Source of the DNA: Oscillospiraceae bacterium Zagget6
Lineage (GTDB): Bacteria > Bacillota > Clostridia > Oscillospirales > Oscillospiraceae
Direction of reading: 5' to 3'
DNA: 38,406 nt
Assembly (NCBI GenBank): GCA_001941075.1
Contig: MSHH01000060.1
Location: 1 to 38,406, forward strand
Each line of letters begins with the position of its first letter. Position 1 is the first letter of the stretch. Below, in pieces: positions 28,726-38,406 of this stretch. The translations under genes were made by a program, and so were the position numbers. The notes under the pieces were generated by a model. The model worked only from the letters and a program-made list of their open reading frames with translations. It ran no database searches and was not told the origin of the DNA.

Positions 28726-30108
28726 TCAGCCCTCCTGCTTCTCGCTGTGGGCCTCGTCCCAGGCTTGGTTGGCCTGTTCCACCTTCAGGAAGTACAACAG
28801 CACCGTGATGAGGATGTTCAGGATGAAGGGGAACACCAGGTACATGAAGTTCAGCATATTGATGCAGGACTGGGGCTGTTGCGCGGCGTTCTGAACGTAT
28901 CCGCCGGCAGCCAGAAGCCAGCCGCCCAGGGCGGTGCCTACGCCGCCGCCGATTTTGGTGCCCAGAGAGGTGCAGGAGTACATGGTACCGTCGATGTGCT
29001 TGCCGGTTGTGCGCCAGGTGTACTCTGAGCAGGTGGCGATCAGGGCATTCAGGTCGCCCTGGAGGGGGCTGGTGCCGATGTAGGCCAGGGCGGTAAACAC
29101 CAGCATCAGCGGGACGTTTTTCATCAGGCCCGCCACGATGACCAGCGCCCGGAACACCGTGGACAGGGCGTAGCCGGTGAGGTTGACCTTGTAAATGCCC
29201 TTGGCCTTTTTCACGATGGAGGGGGTCAGCAGCAGGCCCACGATGATGGGGGCGTTCATGGCGATGGAGAACCGGCCCAGCAGGTTGGCGTCCCCCAGCA
29301 CATAGGTCATGAAATAGATGCCCATAGCGGTCAAGGCGGAGGACACCTGGCAGCAGATGTACACGCCGCAGATGATGAGGTAGAACCGGTTGGACAGCAG
29401 CAGCTTGGCGGATTCCAGCAGGGAAATCTGTTCCGCCGGTGCGTTGTCCTCCGCTTCGCCCTCCAGAGCAAGCTCCTCCGGGGGCAGTTCCTTGACGGAA
29501 AAGACGGAGAAGGAGTTGACCAGCAGGCCCACGATGGCGTAGATGATGGCTACGGTGCGCCAGCCTGCGGCCCCGCCGCCGAAATAACTGACCAGGCCCA
29601 CGGTGACGGACTGAATCAGCATACTGGTGCTGAAGGCGAAGATGAAGCGGATGGAGCCCATCTGCACCCGCTCATGGCCGTTTTTGGTGATGAGGGCAGT
29701 GAGGGCGGAATAGGCGATGTTGTTGGCGGTGTAGAACACAGCGTTGAGCAGGCTGTAGGTGATGAAAAAGTAGGCGTACTGGGCAGTCGCCTGGAAGGAG
29801 GAGGGGACGGAGTAAATGGCTACCAGCAGGAACGCGCAGCCCACATAGGCGTAGAGCATCCAGGGCCGGGCCTTGCCCATTTTGGAGTGGGTGCGGTCAA
29901 TGAGGGAGCCGAAGAACACGTCAGTGACGCCGTCAAAGATCTTGGACAGCATCATCAGCGTGCCGATGATACCGGAGTTCAGACCCACCGTGTCCGTCAG
30001 GTAGATCATAACGAAGGCGGAGAGGAAGGCATAGACGACGTTGCCTGCCACGTCGCCGGAGCCGTAGCCGATTTTATTAAACCAGCTCAGATAACGCTTT
30101 TCGCTCAT
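28726..30108 (-). CDS. GPH-family sugar:cation symporter (MelB/LacS-like)
   Basis: A 460-residue membrane transporter with about twelve helices. GPH features are the N-terminal FNKIGYGSGDVAGN, the SKIFDGVTDVFFGSLIDRT segment with conserved aspartates, and KMGKARPWML after it. There is no C-terminal EIIA domain as found in LacS. It takes up a galactoside with a cation for the downstream LacZ. I choose the ATG at 30108 because GGAG lies nine bases upstream and MSEKRYLSW matches family starts. The frame further upstream runs through promoter DNA. Confidence 0.93.
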   Translation of the reverse strand: MSEKRYLSWFNKIGYGSGDVAGNVVYAFLSAFVMIYLTDTVGLNSGIIGTLMMLSKIFDGVTDVFFGSLIDRTHSKMGKARPWMLYAYVGCAFLLVAIYSVPSSFQATAQYAYFFITYSLLNAVFYTANNIAYSALTALITKNGHERVQMGSIRFIFAFSTSMLIQSVTVGLVSYFGGGAAGWRTVAIIYAIVGLLVNSFSVFSVKELPPEELALEGEAEDNAPAEQISLLESAKLLLSNRFYLIICGVYICCQVSSALTAMGIYFMTYVLGDANLLGRFSIAMNAPIIVGLLLTPSIVKKAKGIYKVNLTGYALSTVFRALVIVAGLMKNVPLMLVFTALAYIGTSPLQGDLNALIATCSEYTWRTTGKHIDGTMYSCTSLGTKIGGGVGTALGGWLLAAGGYVQNAAQQPQSCINMLNFMYLVFPFILNILITVLLYFLKVEQANQAWDEAHSEKQEG

Positions 30109-30133
30109 AATTGATTTCTCCTTTGAAAAAATT

Positions 30134-30145
30134 TTCTCGCAAAAT
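30134..30145 (-). repeat. 12-bp leader element, copy for the symporter gene
   Basis: On the minus strand ATTTTGCGAGAA, 26-37 bases before the symporter start and ahead of its ribosome site. The identical 12 bases occur in sense orientation in the leader of the divergent AraC gene (30286-30297). It could be a regulator half-site or an RNA-level signal. Confidence 0.6.
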
Positions 30146-30180
30146 GATTTTCTGACGCGCCAAATCATCATTTGTTGTGG

Positions 30181-30190
30181 TATAATTATA
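30181..30190. promoter_or_regulatory. Symmetric -10 element shared by the divergent symporter and AraC genes
   Basis: TATAATTATA is a perfect palindrome that supplies TATAAT on both strands (plus 30181-30186, minus 30185-30190). No good -35 box is found at 17 bp on either side. Symmetric -10 elements of this kind can start transcription in both directions, here towards lacZ and towards the regulator. The poor -35 boxes suggest activator control. Confidence 0.6.
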
Positions 30191-30285
30191 GATAATTTGA
30201 GACATTTTGCACATGGCCGAACTATGCCGAAGAATGGACAAAACAGTATATATAAAACAAATGAAAAATGGATAAAAGAATATCT

Positions 30286-30297
30286 ATTTTGCGAGAA
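30286..30297 (+). repeat. 12-bp leader element, copy for the AraC gene
   Basis: ATTTTGCGAGAA directly before the AGGAGAGGAG ribosome site of the AraC gene. It is identical to the copy in the symporter leader and lies in the same orientation relative to its own gene. Confidence 0.6.
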
Positions 30298-30311
30298 GGA
30301 GAGGAGCAATT

Positions 30312-31208
30312 ATGTATATCAACGTCGCGTATCTGGAAGGGATGATGGAGCGCTACCTGACCCCGGTGGACCTGGAGGACCGGAGCGTCCCGCTGCGCGT
30401 CCTCTGCTGTGGGTTCTACCGGGTCACAGATGCGGACCCGGTCATCGACACGCCTCGCCCCAACGGGCGCAAGGACTACCAGCTGCTCTATTTTCACGCC
30501 GGACAGGGGCGGTTCTCTTTCCGGGCAGAGGAGGACGGCGGTCAATGTACCACCCTGGTCACGGCGGGACAGGTGGTGCTGTTCCGCCCCCACGACCGAC
30601 AGGTCTATGAATACTATCCCTCAGACCACACGGAGGTGTATTGGGTCCACTTCACCGGCAGCCAGGTGGAGGAGATGTTAGAGCAGTTCGGCTTTGGCGG
30701 CAAGGAACAAATTTACTGGGGCGGCGTGACGCTGGAATATCAGAATCTGTTCCGAAAGATGATAAAAGAATTGCAGCTTTGCCGAAAGGGATACGAGGCC
30801 ATGCTCACCCACCAGCTCCAGGCGCTGCTGATCTTGCTCAGCCGGAACCGGCACAATCCCTATGCCACCGGCACCCAGGCGGAGCAGATGGTCAACGACG
30901 CTCAGCTTTATTTCGATGAAAACTATGCCAAAGCGCTGAGCATCAACGACTACGCGGCCTCTGTTTACGTCAGCTCCTGCTGGCTCATTCGGAGCTTCCG
31001 GCAGTATGTGGGGGTGACGCCGCTGCAATACATCATCAACGTTCGCATGAGCAACGCCAGAGAGCTGCTGTTGAACCCGGCCCTGTCCATCTCCGATGTG
31101 GCCAGCTCCGTAGGATATGACGACCCCTTCTATTTCAGCCGGCTGTTCAAAAAGTGCGTAGGCGTGTCGCCCAGGGAGTATCGACACGCCTACAACGAGA
31201 AACAGTAG
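30312..31208 (+). CDS. AraC-family regulator of the beta-galactoside locus
   Basis: A 298-residue regulator. The N-terminal half is a cupin-like sugar-sensing domain (YQLLYFHAGQGRFSF, then VLFRPHDRQVYEYYPSDHTE and VHFTG). The C-terminal 100 residues carry the two helix-turn-helix motifs (LSINDYAASVYVSSCWLIRS and ISDVASSVGYDDPFYFSRLF) and end with the typical GVSPREYR. It is divergent from the symporter-lacZ operon and shares the control region 30109-30311, so it most likely activates that operon on a galactoside signal. The start follows an AGGAG-rich box. Confidence 0.9.
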   Translation: MYINVAYLEGMMERYLTPVDLEDRSVPLRVLCCGFYRVTDADPVIDTPRPNGRKDYQLLYFHAGQGRFSFRAEEDGGQCTTLVTAGQVVLFRPHDRQVYEYYPSDHTEVYWVHFTGSQVEEMLEQFGFGGKEQIYWGGVTLEYQNLFRKMIKELQLCRKGYEAMLTHQLQALLILLSRNRHNPYATGTQAEQMVNDAQLYFDENYAKALSINDYAASVYVSSCWLIRSFRQYVGVTPLQYIINVRMSNARELLLNPALSISDVASSVGYDDPFYFSRLFKKCVGVSPREYRHAYNEKQ

Positions 31209-31335
31209 GGAAACTGGCAATGTGGTGCGTTGCAGTCTCAAATGCAAGCCTTTTCTGATAGATTTCAGCGCAATGTCGCAGATAAATCTCGTATTTTTCA
31301 AAACCGCAAAAAAGAAAGATTCTATCATAATTATA

Positions 31336-31364
31336 TTGGGGCCAGGTGCTTTACCTGACCCCAA
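31336..31364 (+). terminator. Hairpin downstream of the AraC gene
   Basis: TTGGGGCCAGGT pairs with ACCTGACCCCAA (one mismatch) around a 5-base loop. The following sequence is AT-rich but has no T-run, so terminator strength is doubtful. Confidence 0.45.
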
Positions 31365-31393
31365 CATTTATGATAATGCGTACTGAACAAAGG

Positions 31394-31686: not shown

Positions 31687-31715
31687 TTGCCATTTCGCTG
31701 AAACTTTGCTATACT
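31687..31715 (+). promoter_or_regulatory. Strong promoter of the structured transcript
   Basis: TTGCCA (31687-31692), a 17-bp spacer and TATACT (31710-31715), each five of six to consensus. The predicted start is near 31722. It drives the RNA candidate below and, by read-through, possibly the giant surface protein gene. Confidence 0.82.
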
Positions 31716-31721
31716 GAACAT

Positions 31722-31974
31722 TGGAAAAACAAAACAGTGCGATAGCTGCCAGGTGTGCCACCACCTGACAGCCTATGCAGGTGAGACAGCTACCATACAC
31801 AACGGCCAAGCTGCATCGCACCTTCTGTCATTATAGGCGGGTTTTACCCTTTTGACAAGGGGAAGTTCTGCCTAAACGGACAAGGAGGTGGTGTTTCTTG
31901 TCTGCTGTGCGCCTGACCCCAGCGTCTGTGCGCCGTGTGTGGGAGGAATCCCTGCACGGCGCTTTTTGTTTTTT
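31722..31974 (+). ncRNA. Candidate structured non-coding RNA or 5' regulatory leader, unknown family
   Basis: The transcript would run from the promoter at 31687-31715 to a strong terminator. Its pairings are an outer stem GTGCGAT (31737-31743) with ATCGCAC (31815-31821), and an inner AGCTG (31744-31748) with CAGCT (31787-31791). CAGGTG (31750-31755) pairs with CACCTG (31762-31767). A second CAGGTG (31778-31783) could take the same CACCTG instead, giving two exclusive forms. Next come TAGGC (31834-31838) with GCCTA (31870-31874) enclosing CCCTT/AAGGG. GACAAG (31879-31884) with CTTGTC (31897-31902) encloses an AGGAGG box. It may be a free small RNA, a riboswitch-like attenuator or the leader of a very short peptide. 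It matches no riboswitch class I can name. Confidence 0.5.
31930..31974 (+). terminator. Strong intrinsic terminator
   Basis: GCGCCGTG (31930-31937) pairs with CACGGCGC (31955-31962), and GGA with TCC inside, followed by TTTTTGTTTTTT. It ends the structured transcript 180 bases before the surface protein start. From 31975 to 32151 I see no gene. The reading frames there are without ribosome sites. Confidence 0.9.
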
Positions 31975-32151: not shown

Positions 32152-35100
32152 ATGAAGCGGAACTGCAAACGGTTGACCGCGCTAATCTTAGCGATGGCCA
32201 TGTGCCTGAGTATGCTGTCATCAGCTGCCTGGGCCGCAGATGTGTCCGTTGAAGAGGAGGAAGTCACAGCGGCTTCCCTCACAACAGACGCAGAGGAACC
32301 CACAGACGACGAGGAAGAGGACACCAACGCAGACGCGGCCGGCGAAGACGCAGAGGACCCCGCCGAAGAAGAAGCGGCGGCGGAGGAATCCACGGAGGAA
32401 TCCGCCGAAGATGAAGCAGCGGCGGAGGAATCCACGGAGGAACCTGCCGAAGAAGAAACGGCGGCGGAGGAATCTACAGAGGAACCTGCCGGGGAAGAAA
32501 CCACCGAAGAAGCGGCCTCTGAGGACGAAGCGGCGGCGGAAGTCACCGCTCAAGCCGACGGAACCAGCGGACAGTGCGGCGACGACGTTTACTGGGAGCT
32601 GGACGAGGAGACCGGTGTGCTGACCATCAGCGGCACCGGCGACATGTACGATTACGCACATATAGAAGATGATGGCGACTACGGAACGGCTCCATGGTAT
32701 TCATATCACGAAAGCATCACCGCAGCTGTTATTGAGGACGGTGTAACGTCAATAGGCGAATTTGCGTTCTTTGGCTGCGGGTGCTTGGAAAGCCTGACGA
32801 TTCCCGACAGCGTGACGTCAATAGGCTATTTTGCGTTCCAGGCAACGGGACTGACGAGTATCACAATAGGCAGCGGTGTGACGTGGATAGCCGAAAATGG
32901 GGTATTCGACACCGAGAGCCTGACCGAAATTAATGTCGATGAAAGCAATACGGCGTACTGCTCCGTGGACGGCGTACTGTTCGATAAGGATATGACGACG
33001 CTTATAGCATACCCCAGGGGCAAGACAGATACAACTTATGCTGTTCCCGACAGCGTGACCTCCATCGGCGCGTATGCGTTCCAGGGCTGCGGGAACCTGA
33101 CCAGCATTGAACTTCCCGACAGCGTGACCTCCATCGGCGAGTATGCCTTCAATGAATGCAACAACCTGGAGACCGTCATTTACAATGGCACGATGGCGGA
33201 GTTTGCGGCCATCGAGGTTGGCAAGGGCAACAGCTGCCTGATGAATCTGACCATTCACTGCACCGACGGCGACGCCACCAACGACGACTACGTTGACAAC
33301 GCGGACGACGGCGAGGACGAGGAAGAAGAAGACTACTCCGTCGGCAACGGCGTGGAGTACCGTCTGGAGGACGGCGTTCTGACCATCTACCGCACCGACG
33401 AAGAAGACCAGGACGGCAGAATGTGGGACTGGGACGAGGGGGATTCTCCCTTCTACGAGCGGGACGACATCACCTCCATCGTCATTGAGGACGGCGTCAC
33501 CTACATCGGCGCAAACGCCTTCAAAAGCTGCTCTGTGGAGAGCCTGTACATCGGCGCGGACGTGGAGGACATCAACTTTTGCGACGGCGCATTTGTCTTC
33601 TGTACCCAGCTGAGCAGCATCGAGGTCTCTGAGGACAACGGCACCTACACCACCGTGGACGGTGTGCTGTTCCAGAAGGACGACGAGGGCAACCCCTCCG
33701 AGCTGAAGCTCTACCCCGTGGGCGACGAAAGCCGCACCAGCTACGAGATCCCCGACGGCGTTTGGTACATCGAACAGTGGGCGTTCTTCTATGCCGACAG
33801 CCTGGAGAGCGTCACCATCTCCTACGACGTCACCGACATCGGCTATGAGGCGTTCAAAAACTGCTACAGCCTGATGAGCGTTACCGTACCCGACACCGTG
33901 ACCAGCATCGGCGACCGCGCCTTTGGCTGGGGAGACTCCGACGAGGGCGATCTGGTGACGCTGGACGGCTTTATCCTCTACGGCTACGCCAACACCCAGG
34001 CCCAGTGGTACGCCGAGGACAACGACGTGACTTTCGTGGCCCTGGACGACGAAAACGCCGAGGGCGAGGGCGACTTCGGCGAGGACGGCGACAACCTCCA
34101 CTGGGTCCTGGCCGACGGCGTTCTGACCATCAGCGTCAACGATGGCTATGACAACGGCTGGATGGGTGAGATGAGCCGGGGCGACGCCCCCTGGTACGAC
34201 ATGCGCCACTCCATCTATGAAGTGGTCATCGAGGACGGCGTGGAGCACATCGGCAACTACGCCTTCTACACCTGCACCAATCTGGAAACTGTGACCGTCC
34301 CGGACAGCGTGACCGATGTGGGGGACTGGGTCTTTGCGCAGTGTCCCAACCTGGGCAGCGTGGAGCTGTCGAACAGCGTGGGATGGATCGGCTACTACAC
34401 CTTCTACCGTAGCGGCCTGACCGAGTTCACCATCCCCAACAACAGCGGCCTGACGGAGATCTGTGACGGCACTTTCCAGGGAACCAACCTGGAGAGCATT
34501 TCCATCCCCCGCCGCATCACTTCCATTGGCTACGCGGCGTTCCAGGACTGCGGCAACCTCAGTGAGGTCACCTTTAGCAGCACCTCCAAGCTGTCCTACA
34601 TCGGCGACAGCGCGTTCCGGAACTGCTCCAGCCTGACCAACATCGACATCCCCAGCGGCGTCACCACCATTGAGGACTGGGCCTTCCAGGGCTGCTCCGC
34701 GCTGGAGAGCGTCACTCTGCCCGACGACGAGGACTTTACGCGGGTCCCCAGCGGGATGTTCAGCGACTGCGAGAACCTGACCAGCGTGACCATCCCCGAC
34801 AGCGTCACCGAGATCGGCAACGACGCCTTTGCCAACTGCACCAGCCTGACCGCCGTCAACATCCCCGACGGCGTGGACTACATCTGTAGCTGGACCTTCT
34901 ACAACTGCTCCAGCCTGGAGAGCATCACTCTCCCCGACGGCGTGACCGTCATCGAGGACGAGGCGTTCCGGGATTGCTCCAGCCTGACCAGCATCAACAT
35001 GCCCGAAAGCCTGACCCAAATCTGCTGGGCGGCCTTTGAGGGCTGCTCCAGCCTGTCCGGTGACCTGGTCATCCCCGACAGCGCTTGTATTGACAGCGAG

Positions 35101-38100
35101 GCGTTCTACGGCTGCTCCAGCCTGACCAGCGTCACCCTGCCCAGCAACGACGAGTACACCGGCATTGGGGAGCGCACCTTCCAGTACTGCTCCAGCCTGA
35201 CCAGTGTCACCATCCCCGACACTGTGACCTACATCGGCGGCAGCGCCTTTGAGGGCTGCACCAGCCTGGAGTACATCGAAATCCCCGACAGCGTGGACAA
35301 CATCGAGTGGTGGGCCTTCGCCTACTGCCCCCTGACCGGGCTGGAGGACGACACCCTTGTCATCAACGAAAACGTGTACAACGTGGGCGACCACGCCTTC
35401 TACGGCTGCGGGTTCCACAATGTCATCATCTATTCCACTGAAATCGACATCGGCGACCTGGCCTTTGGCTGGGACGGCGACGACGAGGAGGCCTACGGCA
35501 CCATCGACGGCTTCACCGTCTACGGCTACGGCGACACCTCCGCCCAGTGGTACGCCGACGACAACGGCCTGACCTTCGTTGACCTGAACTGGGAGTACGA
35601 GGGACAGTGCGGCGACAACGTCTATTGGACCATCGAGAACGGCACTCTGACCCTCTACACCGAGGGCGAGGCCGAGGACGAGGACCAGAATGGCGTGATG
35701 TGGGACTACTGGGACGAGGGTGAGTGCCCCTTCGCCTGGCGCACTGACATCACCTCCATCGTTGTTGAGGACGGCGTCACTTACATCGGCGCCAACGCCT
35801 TCCACGGCTGCTCTGTGGAGAGCCTGTACCTGGGCGCGGACGTGAACGGCATCAACTTCGACAGCAGCGCGTTCGTCTGGTGTACCGAGCTGAGCAGCAT
35901 CGAGGTCTCTGAGAACAACGAAACTTACTTTGTGGAAGACGGCGTGCTGTTCGGCGACAACGGCTTCACCCTGTACCTCTACCCTGTGGGCAGCAACGCT
36001 GACTCCTACGCCATCCCCGACCATGTGACCTTTGTCTATCAGTGGGCGTTCTTCCACGCCGACAGCCTGACCAGCGTCACCTTCCCCGGCAACCTCTACA
36101 ATATCGGCTATGAGGCGTTCAAAAACTGCTACAACCTGTGGGAAGTCACCATTCCCGACCACGTGACCTACATCGACTACCACGCCTTCGGCTTCGCCGA
36201 CCAGGAGGACGAGGACGGCGAGTGGTTCGAGGAGATGGACGGCTTCACCATCTACGGCTATGAGAACACCGCCGCGCAGGACTACGCCGACAGATACGAC
36301 AGCGTCAACTTCGTGGCGCTGGAGGTGGAGCCTGTCAGCGACGGCGGTGACTTCGGCACCAACCTCCACTGGAACCTGGACGAAGACGGCACCCTGACCA
36401 TCAGCGTGGTGGACGCCGACCAGGGCAACAGCATGGACTTTGTGGGCATGGACAGCGCCCCCTGGTATCAGTACCGGCTCAACGTCAAGCACGTCGTCAT
36501 CGAAGAGGGCGTGGAGGGCATCGACAGCTACGCCTTCCTGTTCTGCCACTACCTGGAGGACGTGGACATTCAGGCGGACATCACCTATATCAACAGCGAC
36601 GCCTTTGGCTACTGCCGCAGCCTGGGTGAGATTACCATCCCCGACAGCGTCAGCTACGTTGGCGGCTGGGCGTTTGAGAACTGCTACGGCCTGGAAAGCG
36701 TTACCCTGCCCAACAACGACGAGTTCACCGACATCGAGGACGGCCTGTTCTACGGCTGCTACCTGCTCGCGGAAATCACCATCCCCAATACCGTCACCAG
36801 CATTGGCGATTACGCTTTCAACGGCTGCGGCAGACTGCGGGAGGTCGTCATCCCCGACAGCGTCAGCACCATCGGCGGCTGGGTCTTCGAGGGCTGCGGC
36901 AGCCTGGAGAGCGTTACCCTGCCCAACAACGACGAGTTCACCGAGATTCAGGGCGGCCTGTTCTACGACTGCGGGAACCTGACCAGCGTCACCATCCCCT
37001 CCAGCGTCACCTACATCGGCGGCAACGCCTTCAATGGCTGCGAGAGCCTGGGCGAGATCACCATCCCCGATAGCGTCACCTGCATCGACGGATGGGCGTT
37101 CTACAACACCGGCCTGAACGAGGTCACCATCCCCGCCAGCGTGGAGGAGATCGGTGAGATGGCCTTTGGCTATTACTGGTATTACGAGGAAGGCGAGGAC
37201 GAGGACGGCGACTGGTATTCCGAGGAGTACGACGCAGTGGTGGACAACTTCACCATCTACGGTTACACCGGCACCGCCGCCGAGGACTACGCTAACGACA
37301 ACGAACCGATTATCTTCGTGGCTCTGGAGGAGGAGGAAGCCGAAACCGAGGGTCAGTGCGGCGACAACGTCTACTGGTCCCTGAACGAGGAAGGCATCCT
37401 GACCATCTACACCGACGGCGAAGCTGAGGACGAAGGGCAGAACGGCCGGATGTGGGATTGGGTCGAATCCTTCACCTGGAGGGACGACATTCAGTCCATC
37501 GTCATTGAGGACGGCGTCACCTACATCGGCGCCGGGGCGTTCTACGGCTGCTCCGTGGAGAGCGTGTACATCGGCGCGGACGCGGAGGAAATCAATTTTG
37601 AATGCACGTTCCTCTGGTGTGCCCGCCTGAGCAGCATTGAGGTCGCTGAGGACAACGGCACCTACACCACCGAGGACGGCGTGCTGTTCCTGAAGGACAA
37701 CGAGGGCAACCTCTCCGAGCTGAAACTCTACCCCGTGGGCGACGAGAGCCGCACCAGCTACGAGATTCCCGATGGCGTTTGGTACATCGAGGATAGTGCG
37801 TTCTTCCACGCCGTGAGCCTGGAGAGTGTCACCATCCCCGACAGCATCACCACCATCGGCGGCACTGCGTTCGTCAACTGCGACAGCCTGATGAGCGTCA
37901 CCATCCCCGCCACCGTGACCGACATCGGTTTCCAAGCCTTTGGCTATATAGACATCGAGGACATGGAAACCGTAGACGACAGGCAGATTATAGACGGCTT
38001 CACCATCTACGGCTACGAGGGCACCGCCGCCGAGACCTACGCCAACGACAACGAACCGATTATCTTCGTGGCTCTGGAGAAGGCCGACATGACCGTCAGC

Positions 38101-38406
38101 AAGTCCGACTACTCCGGCACGTATGACGGCTCCGCCCACACCTTCACCCTGTCGGTCAGTGGACCCAGCAGCTACACCGTCTATTACAGCAAGACCACCA
38201 AGCTGACCAGCAGCAACTACAGTACCACCGGAACCACTACCAAGCCCACCCGTGTCAGCCTCGGACAGACCACCGTCTATTATTACATCGAGGACAACAC
38301 CGGGATTTATAACGACGCTTCCGGCACCGCTTACATCTACCTCAGACCGGAAGTGACCGCCACCGCCTACTCCGGCACTTACGACGGTTCCACCCATTCG
38401 GCCACC
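32152..38406 (+). CDS. Giant secreted BspA-like leucine-rich-repeat surface protein (runs past the window end)
   Basis: One frame stays open from the ATG at 32152 to the last base, 2085 codons without a stop, so the C-terminus is not seen. A signal peptide covers residues 1-28 (basic MKRNCKR, a hydrophobic core, then AWA before ADV). Residues about 29-140 are a Glu/Ala/Thr-rich acidic segment with a 14-residue repeat. Six modules then start with a G-x-x-V/L-x-W...L-T-I pattern (near 32572, 33343, 34087, 35611, 36355 and 37360). Each is followed by arrays of about 23-residue LRR_5 repeats of the type LTSVTIPDSVTYIGGNAF. Near 38080 a YSGTYDGSAHT region begins a YDG/MBG-type tandem domain. Such proteins are exported and mediate binding or adhesion. 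No wall anchor is visible in the part present. The ribosome site is an AAAGG box about 11 bases upstream. Confidence 0.93.
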   Translation, partial: MKRNCKRLTALILAMAMCLSMLSSAAWAADVSVEEEEVTAASLTTDAEEPTDDEEEDTNADAAGEDAEDPAEEEAAAEESTEESAEDEAAAEESTEEPAEEETAAEESTEEPAGEETTEEAASEDEAAAEVTAQADGTSGQCGDDVYWELDEETGVLTISGTGDMYDYAHIEDDGDYGTAPWYSYHESITAAVIEDGVTSIGEFAFFGCGCLESLTIPDSVTSIGYFAFQATGLTSITIGSGVTWIAENGVFDTESLTEINVDESNTAYCSVDGVLFDKDMTTLIAYPRGKTDTTYAVPDSVTSIGAYAFQGCGNLTSIELPDSVTSIGEYAFNECNNLETVIYNGTMAEFAAIEVGKGNSCLMNLTIHCTDGDATNDDYVDNADDGEDEEEEDYSVGNGVEYRLEDGVLTIYRTDEEDQDGRMWDWDEGDSPFYERDDITSIVIEDGVTYIGANAFKSCSVESLYIGADVEDINFCDGAFVFCTQLSSIEVSEDNGTYTTVDGVLFQKDDEGNPSELKLYPVGDESRTSYEIPDGVWYIEQWAFFYADSLESVTISYDVTDIGYEAFKNCYSLMSVTVPDTVTSIGDRAFGWGDSDEGDLVTLDGFILYGYANTQAQWYAEDNDVTFVALDDENAEGEGDFGEDGDNLHWVLADGVLTISVNDGYDNGWMGEMSRGDAPWYDMRHSIYEVVIEDGVEHIGNYAFYTCTNLETVTVPDSVTDVGDWVFAQCPNLGSVELSNSVGWIGYYTFYRSGLTEFTIPNNSGLTEICDGTFQGTNLESISIPRRITSIGYAAFQDCGNLSEVTFSSTSKLSYIGDSAFRNCSSLTNIDIPSGVTTIEDWAFQGCSALESVTLPDDEDFTRVPSGMFSDCENLTSVTIPDSVTEIGNDAFANCTSLTAVNIPDGVDYICSWTFYNCSSLESITLPDGVTVIEDEAFRDCSSLTSINMPESLTQICWAAFEGCSSLSGDLVIPDSACIDSEAFYGCSSLTSVTLPSNDEYTGIGERTFQYCSSLTSVTIPDTVTYIGGSAFEGCTSLEYIEIPDSVDNIEWWAFAYCPLTGLEDDTLVINENVYNVGDHAFYGCGFHNVIIYSTEIDIGDLAFGWDGDDEEAYGTIDGFTVYGYGDTSAQWYADDNGLTFVDLNWEYEGQCGDNVYWTIENGTLTLYTEGEAEDEDQNGVMWDYWDEGECPFAWRTDITSIVVEDGVTYIGANAFHGCSVESLYLGADVNGINFDSSAFVWCTELSSIEVSENNETYFVEDGVLFGDNGFTLYLYPVGSNADSYAIPDHVTFVYQWAFFHADSLTSVTFPGNLYNIGYEAFKNCYNLWEVTIPDHVTYIDYHAFGFADQEDEDGEWFEEMDGFTIYGYENTAAQDYADRYDSVNFVALEVEPVSDGGDFGTNLHWNLDEDGTLTISVVDADQGNSMDFVGMDSAPWYQYRLNVKHVVIEEGVEGIDSYAFLFCHYLEDVDIQADITYINSDAFGYCRSLGEITIPDSVSYVGGWAFENCYGLESVTLPNNDEFTDIEDGLFYGCYLLAEITIPNTVTSIGDYAFNGCGRLREVVIPDSVSTIGGWVFEGCGSLESVTLPNNDEFTEIQGGLFYDCGNLTSVTIPSSVTYIGGNAFNGCESLGEITIPDSVTCIDGWAFYNTGLNEVTIPASVEEIGEMAFGYYWYYEEGEDEDGDWYSEEYDAVVDNFTIYGYTGTAAEDYANDNEPIIFVALEEEEAETEGQCGDNVYWSLNEEGILTIYTDGEAEDEGQNGRMWDWVESFTWRDDIQSIVIEDGVTYIGAGAFYGCSVESVYIGADAEEINFECTFLWCARLSSIEVAEDNGTYTTEDGVLFLKDNEGNLSELKLYPVGDESRTSYEIPDGVWYIEDSAFFHAVSLESVTIPDSITTIGGTAFVNCDSLMSVTIPATVTDIGFQAFGYIDIEDMETVDDRQIIDGFTIYGYEGTAAETYANDNEPIIFVALEKADMTVSKSDYSGTYDGSAHTFTLSVSGPSSYTVYYSKTTKLTSSNYSTTGTTTKPTRVSLGQTTVYYYIEDNTGIYNDASGTAYIYLRPEVTATAYSGTYDGSTHSAT
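32374..32499 (+). repeat. Three tandem 42-bp repeats encoding an acidic segment
   Basis: Units at 32374-32415, 32416-32457 and 32458-32499 encode AAAEESTEESAEDE, AAAEESTEEPAEEE and TAAEESTEEPAGEE. They form part of the disordered acidic stalk after the signal peptide. Exact short-period repeats of this kind can change copy number by slippage or recombination. Confidence 0.88.
33343..37359 (+). repeat. Two long internal super-repeats (about 2.27 and 1.75 kb) in the surface protein gene, with a third beginning
   Basis: Module starts at 33343, 35611 and 37360 are of one kind (DGRMWDW or NGVMWDY following), and those at 34087 and 36355 are of another (NLHW following). The first offset is 2268 bases for both kinds, so the unit is a pair of modules that was duplicated. 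The next offset is 1749 bases, so the second copy has fewer leucine-rich repeats. Parts of copies one and three are nearly identical at the DNA level, for example around 33700-33770 and 37720-37790. Confidence 0.8.

Follow-up and report, generated by a model that had tools for sequence, protein, structure and literature searches.

A conserved minus-strand RNA in a probable antisense-controlled transcription attenuator ahead of a surface-protein gene of an Oscillospiraceae bacterium

We analyzed a stretch of 38,406 nt from Oscillospiraceae bacterium Zagget6, a gut bacterium (contig MSHH01000060.1; hereafter, the window), in which an element at positions 31687-31974 precedes a gene for a BspA-type leucine-rich-repeat protein (32152-38406, plus strand; at least 2085 aa, running off the contig). 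The element is probably a transcription attenuator that is controlled by an antisense RNA and lies ahead of this surface-protein gene. We found promoters on both strands, terminators of both strands as sequence features, a minus-strand fold with covariation, conserved complementarity between the leader and its terminator, and a position before a gene at most loci. The sequence-only reading of the window had proposed a switchable leader or a free small RNA. There was evidence for both, on opposite strands, and the fold had been read on the wrong one. A real RNA element is present, and that reading is partly supported and was correct in spirit.

Strand and conservation of the fold

The 288 nt of the element (31687-31974, plus strand) folded more stably than all of 200 shuffled sequences (z = -3.64). 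The stems GTGCGAT (31737-31743) and ATCGCAC (31815-31821), which had been described as closing this fold, are present and covary, but the fold that they close belongs to the minus strand. There they form the closing stem, P1, of an antisense RNA (GTGCGAT 31821-31815 with ATCGCAC 31743-31737). The closing stems also covaried in alignment A4, which included two spurious rows.

The strand was indicated by the homologues, of which 137 matches minus 10 duplicates gave 127 loci. In the paired columns of plus-strand alignments, which had been fitted to the plus-strand structure, we counted 252 A-C cells versus 46 G-U cells. An A-C combination on the plus strand is a G-U pair on the minus strand, so that an excess of this kind is expected from wobble pairs selected on the minus strand. 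Further, the minus strand folded more stably than the plus strand at 127 of 127 loci, and the mean folding energies were -49.6 and -37.5 kcal/mol, respectively. The same strand comparison in control windows (n = 216) gave -25.9 and -25.8 kcal/mol.

A minus-strand alignment of 50 sequences (A8) showed one closing helix and three hairpins around a four-way junction that was almost fully paired, with two counted unpaired columns only; the hairpin loops were the variable parts. Two-sided changes were present at 24 of its 33 pairs, 95.5% of the cells at paired columns were paired, and the covariation score was 0.502 compared with 0.192 in shuffles (0 of 500 as high) and no more than 0.107 in slid controls; these counts flatter the alignment, because 30 of the 80 representatives, mostly the most divergent, had been omitted by hand. 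A wobble was conserved at five pairs in 36-46 of the 50 sequences. Covariation among homologues had been set beforehand as a test of the element, and it proved strong. The antisense RNA of the window folded on its own with z = -3.59, and its single-sequence minimum-free-energy structure retained P1 and one hairpin rather than the full consensus. We concluded that the conserved structured RNA lies, with near certainty, on the minus strand.

Two smaller features of the sequence-only reading are present in the window but were rejected as parts of the conserved element. The segment CACCTG (31762-31767) and the two CAGGTG segments (31750-31755 and 31778-31783) are present, but the choice between the two pairings was not conserved, by eye, in an alignment of eight loci, and we rejected this alternation as the switch. 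Similarly, AGGAGG (31883-31888) lies inside a hairpin, but this hairpin was not conserved in the eight-locus alignment, also judged by eye. A block after the junction, considered for a time as a second hairpin domain of the plus strand, was dropped; it is the minus-strand promoter, conserved at 118 of 127 loci.

Transcription signals and antiterminator pairing

The sense promoter (31687-31715, plus strand) consists of TTGCCA and TATACT separated by 17 nt, with TG ahead of the second hexamer, in agreement with the near-consensus promoter reported earlier. Transcription would start near 31722, and the predicted leader RNA (31722-31974) would stop at the intrinsic terminator unless this is read through. 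Two features had been overlooked. One is a promoter on the minus strand (31830-31858; TTGTCA-17-TATAAT, 11 of 12 hexamer positions matched), which faces the sense promoter. The other is a U-tract, TGTTTTGTTTTTCC (31723-31736, minus strand), which follows P1, overlaps it by one base and is the putative terminator of the antisense RNA. The antisense RNA would be ~97 nt long (~31823 to ~31727, minus strand) and comprise P1 and the three hairpins of the four-way junction.

These signals are conserved. Promoters were scored as the number of hexamer positions matched (maximum 12), to which a bonus of half a point could be added, with a cut-off of at least 9. The sense promoter reached this score at 103 of 126 loci compared with 95 of 2105 control placements (4.5%), and the antisense promoter at 118 of 127 loci compared with 101 of 2105 (4.8%). 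An A-rich stretch of the plus strand before P1 corresponds to the minus-strand U-tract behind the closing helix, and at least seven A in 10 plus-strand positions were found at 112 of 127 loci versus 62 of 2074 controls.

The strong terminator of the earlier reading was likewise confirmed. It spans 31930-31974 (plus strand; -24.3 kcal/mol) and is composed of a hairpin (31930-31962), whose 5' arm includes GCCGTGTGTGG, and the T-run TTTTTGTTTTTT. A terminator-like hairpin was detected on the sense strand at 122 of 127 loci versus 87 of 284 control windows, and one below -12 kcal/mol at 110 of 127 versus 26 of 284, although several of the picks among the 127 loci differ from the conserved hairpin. 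At five of 127 loci the downstream search found no terminator.

The leader segment ACCATACACAACGGC (31792-31806, plus strand), which falls within the stretch opposite the antisense RNA, has its complement in the terminator's 5' arm and is the putative half of an antiterminator. The most common form of this segment, ACCUACACAACGGC, occurred at 38 of 99 loci, opposite arms such as GCYGUGUAGG, and a GCYGTGTAGG-like sequence recurred in the 5' arm in many relatives. Duplexes were calculated for 99 of the 127 loci. The median energy of matched segment and arm was -14.4 kcal/mol, compared with -7.3 kcal/mol for shuffled segments and -12.2 kcal/mol for segments combined with the arms of other loci (all cross pairs). 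When the segments were reduced to 28 distinct cores, the matched mean was -13.0 kcal/mol and the permuted mean -10.9 kcal/mol (sd 0.43), and 0 of 5000 permutations were as strong, in a permutation over segment types that ignores phylogeny. The own arm was the strongest partner in 0 of the 28 types, and in four of the 28 at least 21 other arms bound more strongly than the own arm. Compensating variants were CCAUGCAC/GUGCAUGG (L029 and L050), CCUACGC/GCGUAGG (L084) and CUCGUACA/UGUAUGAG (L079); CCUUACG/CGUAAGG was seen by eye in the copies of genome G598.

Folding of the leaders took in 81 loci. In transcripts that end just after the terminator loop, at least five segment-arm pairs were expected at 81% of these loci. 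In the window, a transcript ending at 31946-31955 was predicted to form eight such pairs, which are replaced by the terminator at 31960. For the full leader at equilibrium, the medians were 0.0016 segment-arm pairs and 12.8 terminator pairs. The finished terminator thus wins at equilibrium, and the switch must therefore be kinetic, with the choice made during transcription.

The arrangement is that of the attenuators of the pT181 and pIP501 type. As sequence, the antisense promoter lies inside the leader and is convergent with the sense promoter, and an intrinsic terminator lies between the antisense target and the coding region. Judged by complementarity, the terminator's 5' arm can pair with a part of the leader that the antisense RNA covers. 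A mechanism of antisense attenuation is likely. The sense promoter would produce the leader of the surface-protein mRNA, and the convergent promoter, ~115 bp away, the ~97-nt antisense RNA with its four-way junction, complementary to the first ~100 nt of the leader. In a free nascent leader, 31792-31806 would pair with the emerging 5' arm and delay the terminator, so that RNA polymerase could reach the gene. The antisense RNA would bind the leader, with the first contact through its exposed hairpin loops; 31792-31806 would then be hidden, the terminator would form and transcription would end before the gene. From these features we infer that the cell makes both RNAs, that the two bind each other and thereby bring about termination, and that each copy owes its specificity to its loops.

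Distribution and neighbouring genes

Using blastn, we identified another copy elsewhere in this genome (contig C79; 73% identity), and copies were present in five of 32 genomes of the genus, the own genome included. Two further hits in the own genome were not accepted: C21 reads by eye as coding sequence, and C4 reached 21 bits with no locus match at E 0.01. With a covariance model built from eight copies (R1), the element was detected in 105 of 400 genomes sampled from the same family, in 32 of 245 from the order, where a single genome had as many as 10 matches, and in six of 299 from the phylum. Another model (R2), for which the minus strand was used, detected it in 14 of 291 genomes of the class and nine of 398 of the phylum. 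These genome samples overlap and contain the own genome of the window, and the E-values of the models are only rough. Among named genomes, 28 loci were found by a pattern scan, and many of these are in Oscillospiraceae, Oscillibacter, Flavonifractor, Evtepia, Dysosmobacter or Pseudoflavonifractor; by sequence, Evtepia gabavorous KLE1738 and Oscillibacter sp. MSJ-31 are among the carriers. At L045, two copies lie on the same strand ~1 kb apart, each ahead of a different ORF.

Blastn of the window element gave no match in plasmids or phages, and blastn of the elements of two relatives gave none in plasmids. A stringent pattern search of viral sequences found nothing, and looser patterns gave 15 and 112 stretches. 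When 95 of these 127 stretches were searched with the model, there were one strong match (L259), on a proviral contig where a serine recombinase lies close by, and two partial matches at E 0.0099. Another copy (L318) lies in an unannotated record of a faecal phage.

A gene on the sense side, starting 60-560 nt beyond the element, was found at 92 of 119 loci, compared with 47 of 115 on the other side; at 27 of the 119 loci this simple positional rule gave no sense gene. By simple heuristics, a signal-peptide-like start was present in 45 of the 92 sense genes versus 24 of 177 background ORFs. The gene of the window, which we take to be the one controlled, matched Pfam LRR_5 (E = 1.8e-279) and has by eye a signal-peptide-like start. 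The genes downstream are otherwise unrelated, their 87 proteins giving matches to 47 Pfam families (87 of 94 references, aligned and cut at 420 aa). Among the 25 of these 47 families that were listed are copper-amine-oxidase N domains (eight proteins), TraX (five), SLH (five), phage-type integrases (four) and serine recombinases (three). Single cases are a SymE-family protein in a distant relative (L190, PF08845), a Spo0E-like protein (L188) and PemK (L058). A TnpB gene lies ~330 nt beyond the element in L111, with a small ORF between them by eye. Neither a replication initiator nor a toxin family was among the 25 of 47 families listed; the BspA-type gene behind the element in the window is neither of these. 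Two orphan copies, L002 (1652-1756, minus strand) and L009 (1517-1621), retain both promoters and have no sense gene. They occupy the same place in the own genome and in one relative, between proS and the convergent pflA (by eye).

In distant relatives (L158, L160, L162 and L181-L189), the element often stands ahead of small proteins of ~90-120 aa; these are Spo0E-like in L188 and DUF6809 in L160, whereas the match in L162 is under the cut-off of that family. Similar small proteins follow several copies in one distant genome. Upstream of another copy (L041) is an ORF that resembles by eye the start of what we take to be a type II Cas9, with a RuvC-like motif.

Directly upstream of the element in the window is a gene for an AraC-family regulator (30312-31208, plus strand), divergent from a gene for an MFS sugar-type transporter (28726-30309, minus strand). 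After the AraC-family gene lies a GC-rich hairpin (31333-31377, GGGGCCAGGTGC...ACCTGACCCC) that had no accepted Rfam match and is perhaps a terminator. VirF of Shigella is an AraC-type regulator. According to an excerpt of one study, VirF relieves attenuation in the RnaG/icsA system by binding both RNAs (PMC5394118). The resemblance of the AraC-family neighbour to this arrangement is probably a coincidence.

Loop variation, other explanations and related systems

Genome G598 has 10 matches, eight of which were compared. Two of the hairpin loops differed at 64% and 61% of sites among these copies, close to saturation, whereas the rest of the RNA differed at 4.3% (~96% identical), the spacer of the antisense promoter at 24% and the 55 nt that precede the antisense RNA at 13%. 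Five other genomes, in which two to seven copies were compared (seven of eight matches in G1260), showed differences at 38-86% of sites in both loops and at 2-34% in the paired columns; the value of 34% is that of G966, which has older copies. The loops of these sequences thus diverge faster than adjacent non-coding DNA, which suggests that selection has diversified them into separate addresses. The variation may also be due to relaxed constraint in a self-complementary pair or to homogenization of the remaining sequence. Our hypothesis is that the loops are locus-specific addresses. More tentatively, and with well under an even chance in our judgement, the element may be a portable cassette for antisense attenuation, common to mobile and accessory genes of Clostridia-type bacteria whatever protein these encode, with the two hairpin loops serving as an address under diversifying selection.

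The minus-strand RNA may be a free small RNA that acts in trans on other mRNAs, with the plus-strand promoter and terminator belonging to the neighbouring gene. Its own promoter and U-tract, its multiple copies (up to 10 per genome) and the orphans L002 and L009 are consistent with this, and an excerpt on LhrC, a multicopy small RNA family of Listeria, provides a comparison (PMC4132741). But the hairpin loops, at which small RNAs of this kind usually contact their targets, vary more than any other part of the RNA, complementarity is maintained between the terminator arm and the stretch of leader opposite the antisense RNA, and a gene lies on the sense side at 92 of 119 loci. We consider this explanation unlikely.

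Pairing of the two RNAs may instead block translation or trigger mRNA decay, in the style of a type I toxin-antitoxin system, in which case the terminator would be a side feature. In Escherichia coli, SymE is controlled by the antisense RNA SymR, and here, too, a putative antisense RNA lies over a leader and one distant relative of the element precedes a SymE-family gene. Unlike SymE, the downstream families are mostly not toxins (none among the 25 of 47 listed, and PemK at one locus). Further, the antisense RNA of the window lies ~330 nt upstream of the start codon, and the terminator arm is conserved together with its partner in the leader. These points argue for attenuation rather than a block of translation, which we regard as quite improbable.

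A riboswitch, or another leader that senses a ligand on the plus strand, would also have a promoter, a terminator and alternative pairing, and the window sequence folds well. Against this, the A-C excess and the folding energies favour the minus strand, the alignments showed neither a conserved unpaired pocket nor a ligand-binding core on the sense strand, and the downstream genes are unrelated (47 Pfam families in 87 proteins). No family of Rfam 15 matched at the gathering threshold in the window or in 20 homologous loci, in line with the sequence-only reading, which could name no riboswitch class and for which a clear Rfam match would have been a refutation. Another 20 loci (19 with the element and one rejected hit) gave only a tRNA outside the element, and a permissive search around the window element gave E-values of 1.2 or worse. 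A ligand-sensing leader is thus very improbable. That the fold works as single-stranded DNA, in recombination, transfer or as a single-strand origin, is hardly credible: several copies have recombinase or TraX genes as neighbours or lie on a proviral contig, but promoter hexamers on both strands, the U-tract and the complementarity of the terminator arm are features of transcription, and the hairpin loops are not conserved.

The attenuator proposed here has relatives among known systems. One is the plasmid pT181, which uses antisense attenuation; another is pIP501, in which two loop pairs are reportedly needed. Convergent promoters, a structured antisense RNA of 136 nt (RNAIII) and premature termination of the repR leader before the gene are described for pIP501 in an excerpt of PMC4981023. 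The window element resembles it, as sequence, in its convergent sense and antisense promoters, structured antisense RNA and leader terminator. In contrast to pIP501, which controls a replication initiator and plasmid copy number, the copies described here are genomic or borne by elements, before unrelated genes; the window element had no blastn match in plasmids, and no rep gene was among the 25 of 47 families listed. The target of RnaG in Shigella, IcsA, is a surface protein. RnaG, encoded on the virulence plasmid, is 450 nt long, is transcribed within icsA and causes premature termination of the leader via a kissing complex, according to the same excerpt as above (PMC5394118), whereas the present family is compact and multicopy, has its own conserved fold and occurs in Clostridia-type bacteria.

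We found no published description of this RNA family in literature searches, although supplements may contain it. The main text of a survey of thousands of candidate RNAs, as far as its excerpts go, names neither Oscillibacter nor Flavonifractor, and its supplements may list the RNA without a name (PMC8040213). We concluded that the elements form a separate, widespread family of probable attenuators that has no match in Rfam 15 and is not tied to plasmid replication.

To our knowledge, most described cases of antisense attenuation come from a few plasmids and individual genes. The present RNA family is compact, occurs in about one in four of the genomes sampled from a single bacterial family and sporadically outside it, and lies near or before genes for surface proteins, recombinases and a few toxin-family proteins. 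If attenuation is confirmed, it would be a general way for these bacteria to hold acquired and surface genes off or heterogeneous. If the loops are indeed addresses, a copy already present would silence any newly arriving gene of the same address, and the copies within a cell would have to differ, as plasmid incompatibility groups do. The RNA switches of one cell would then be orthogonal to each other, with one for each surface protein or element. Upon confirmation, such address-like loops would make RNA orthogonality within one cell directly testable, and the elements might be used as ready-made orthogonal gene switches.
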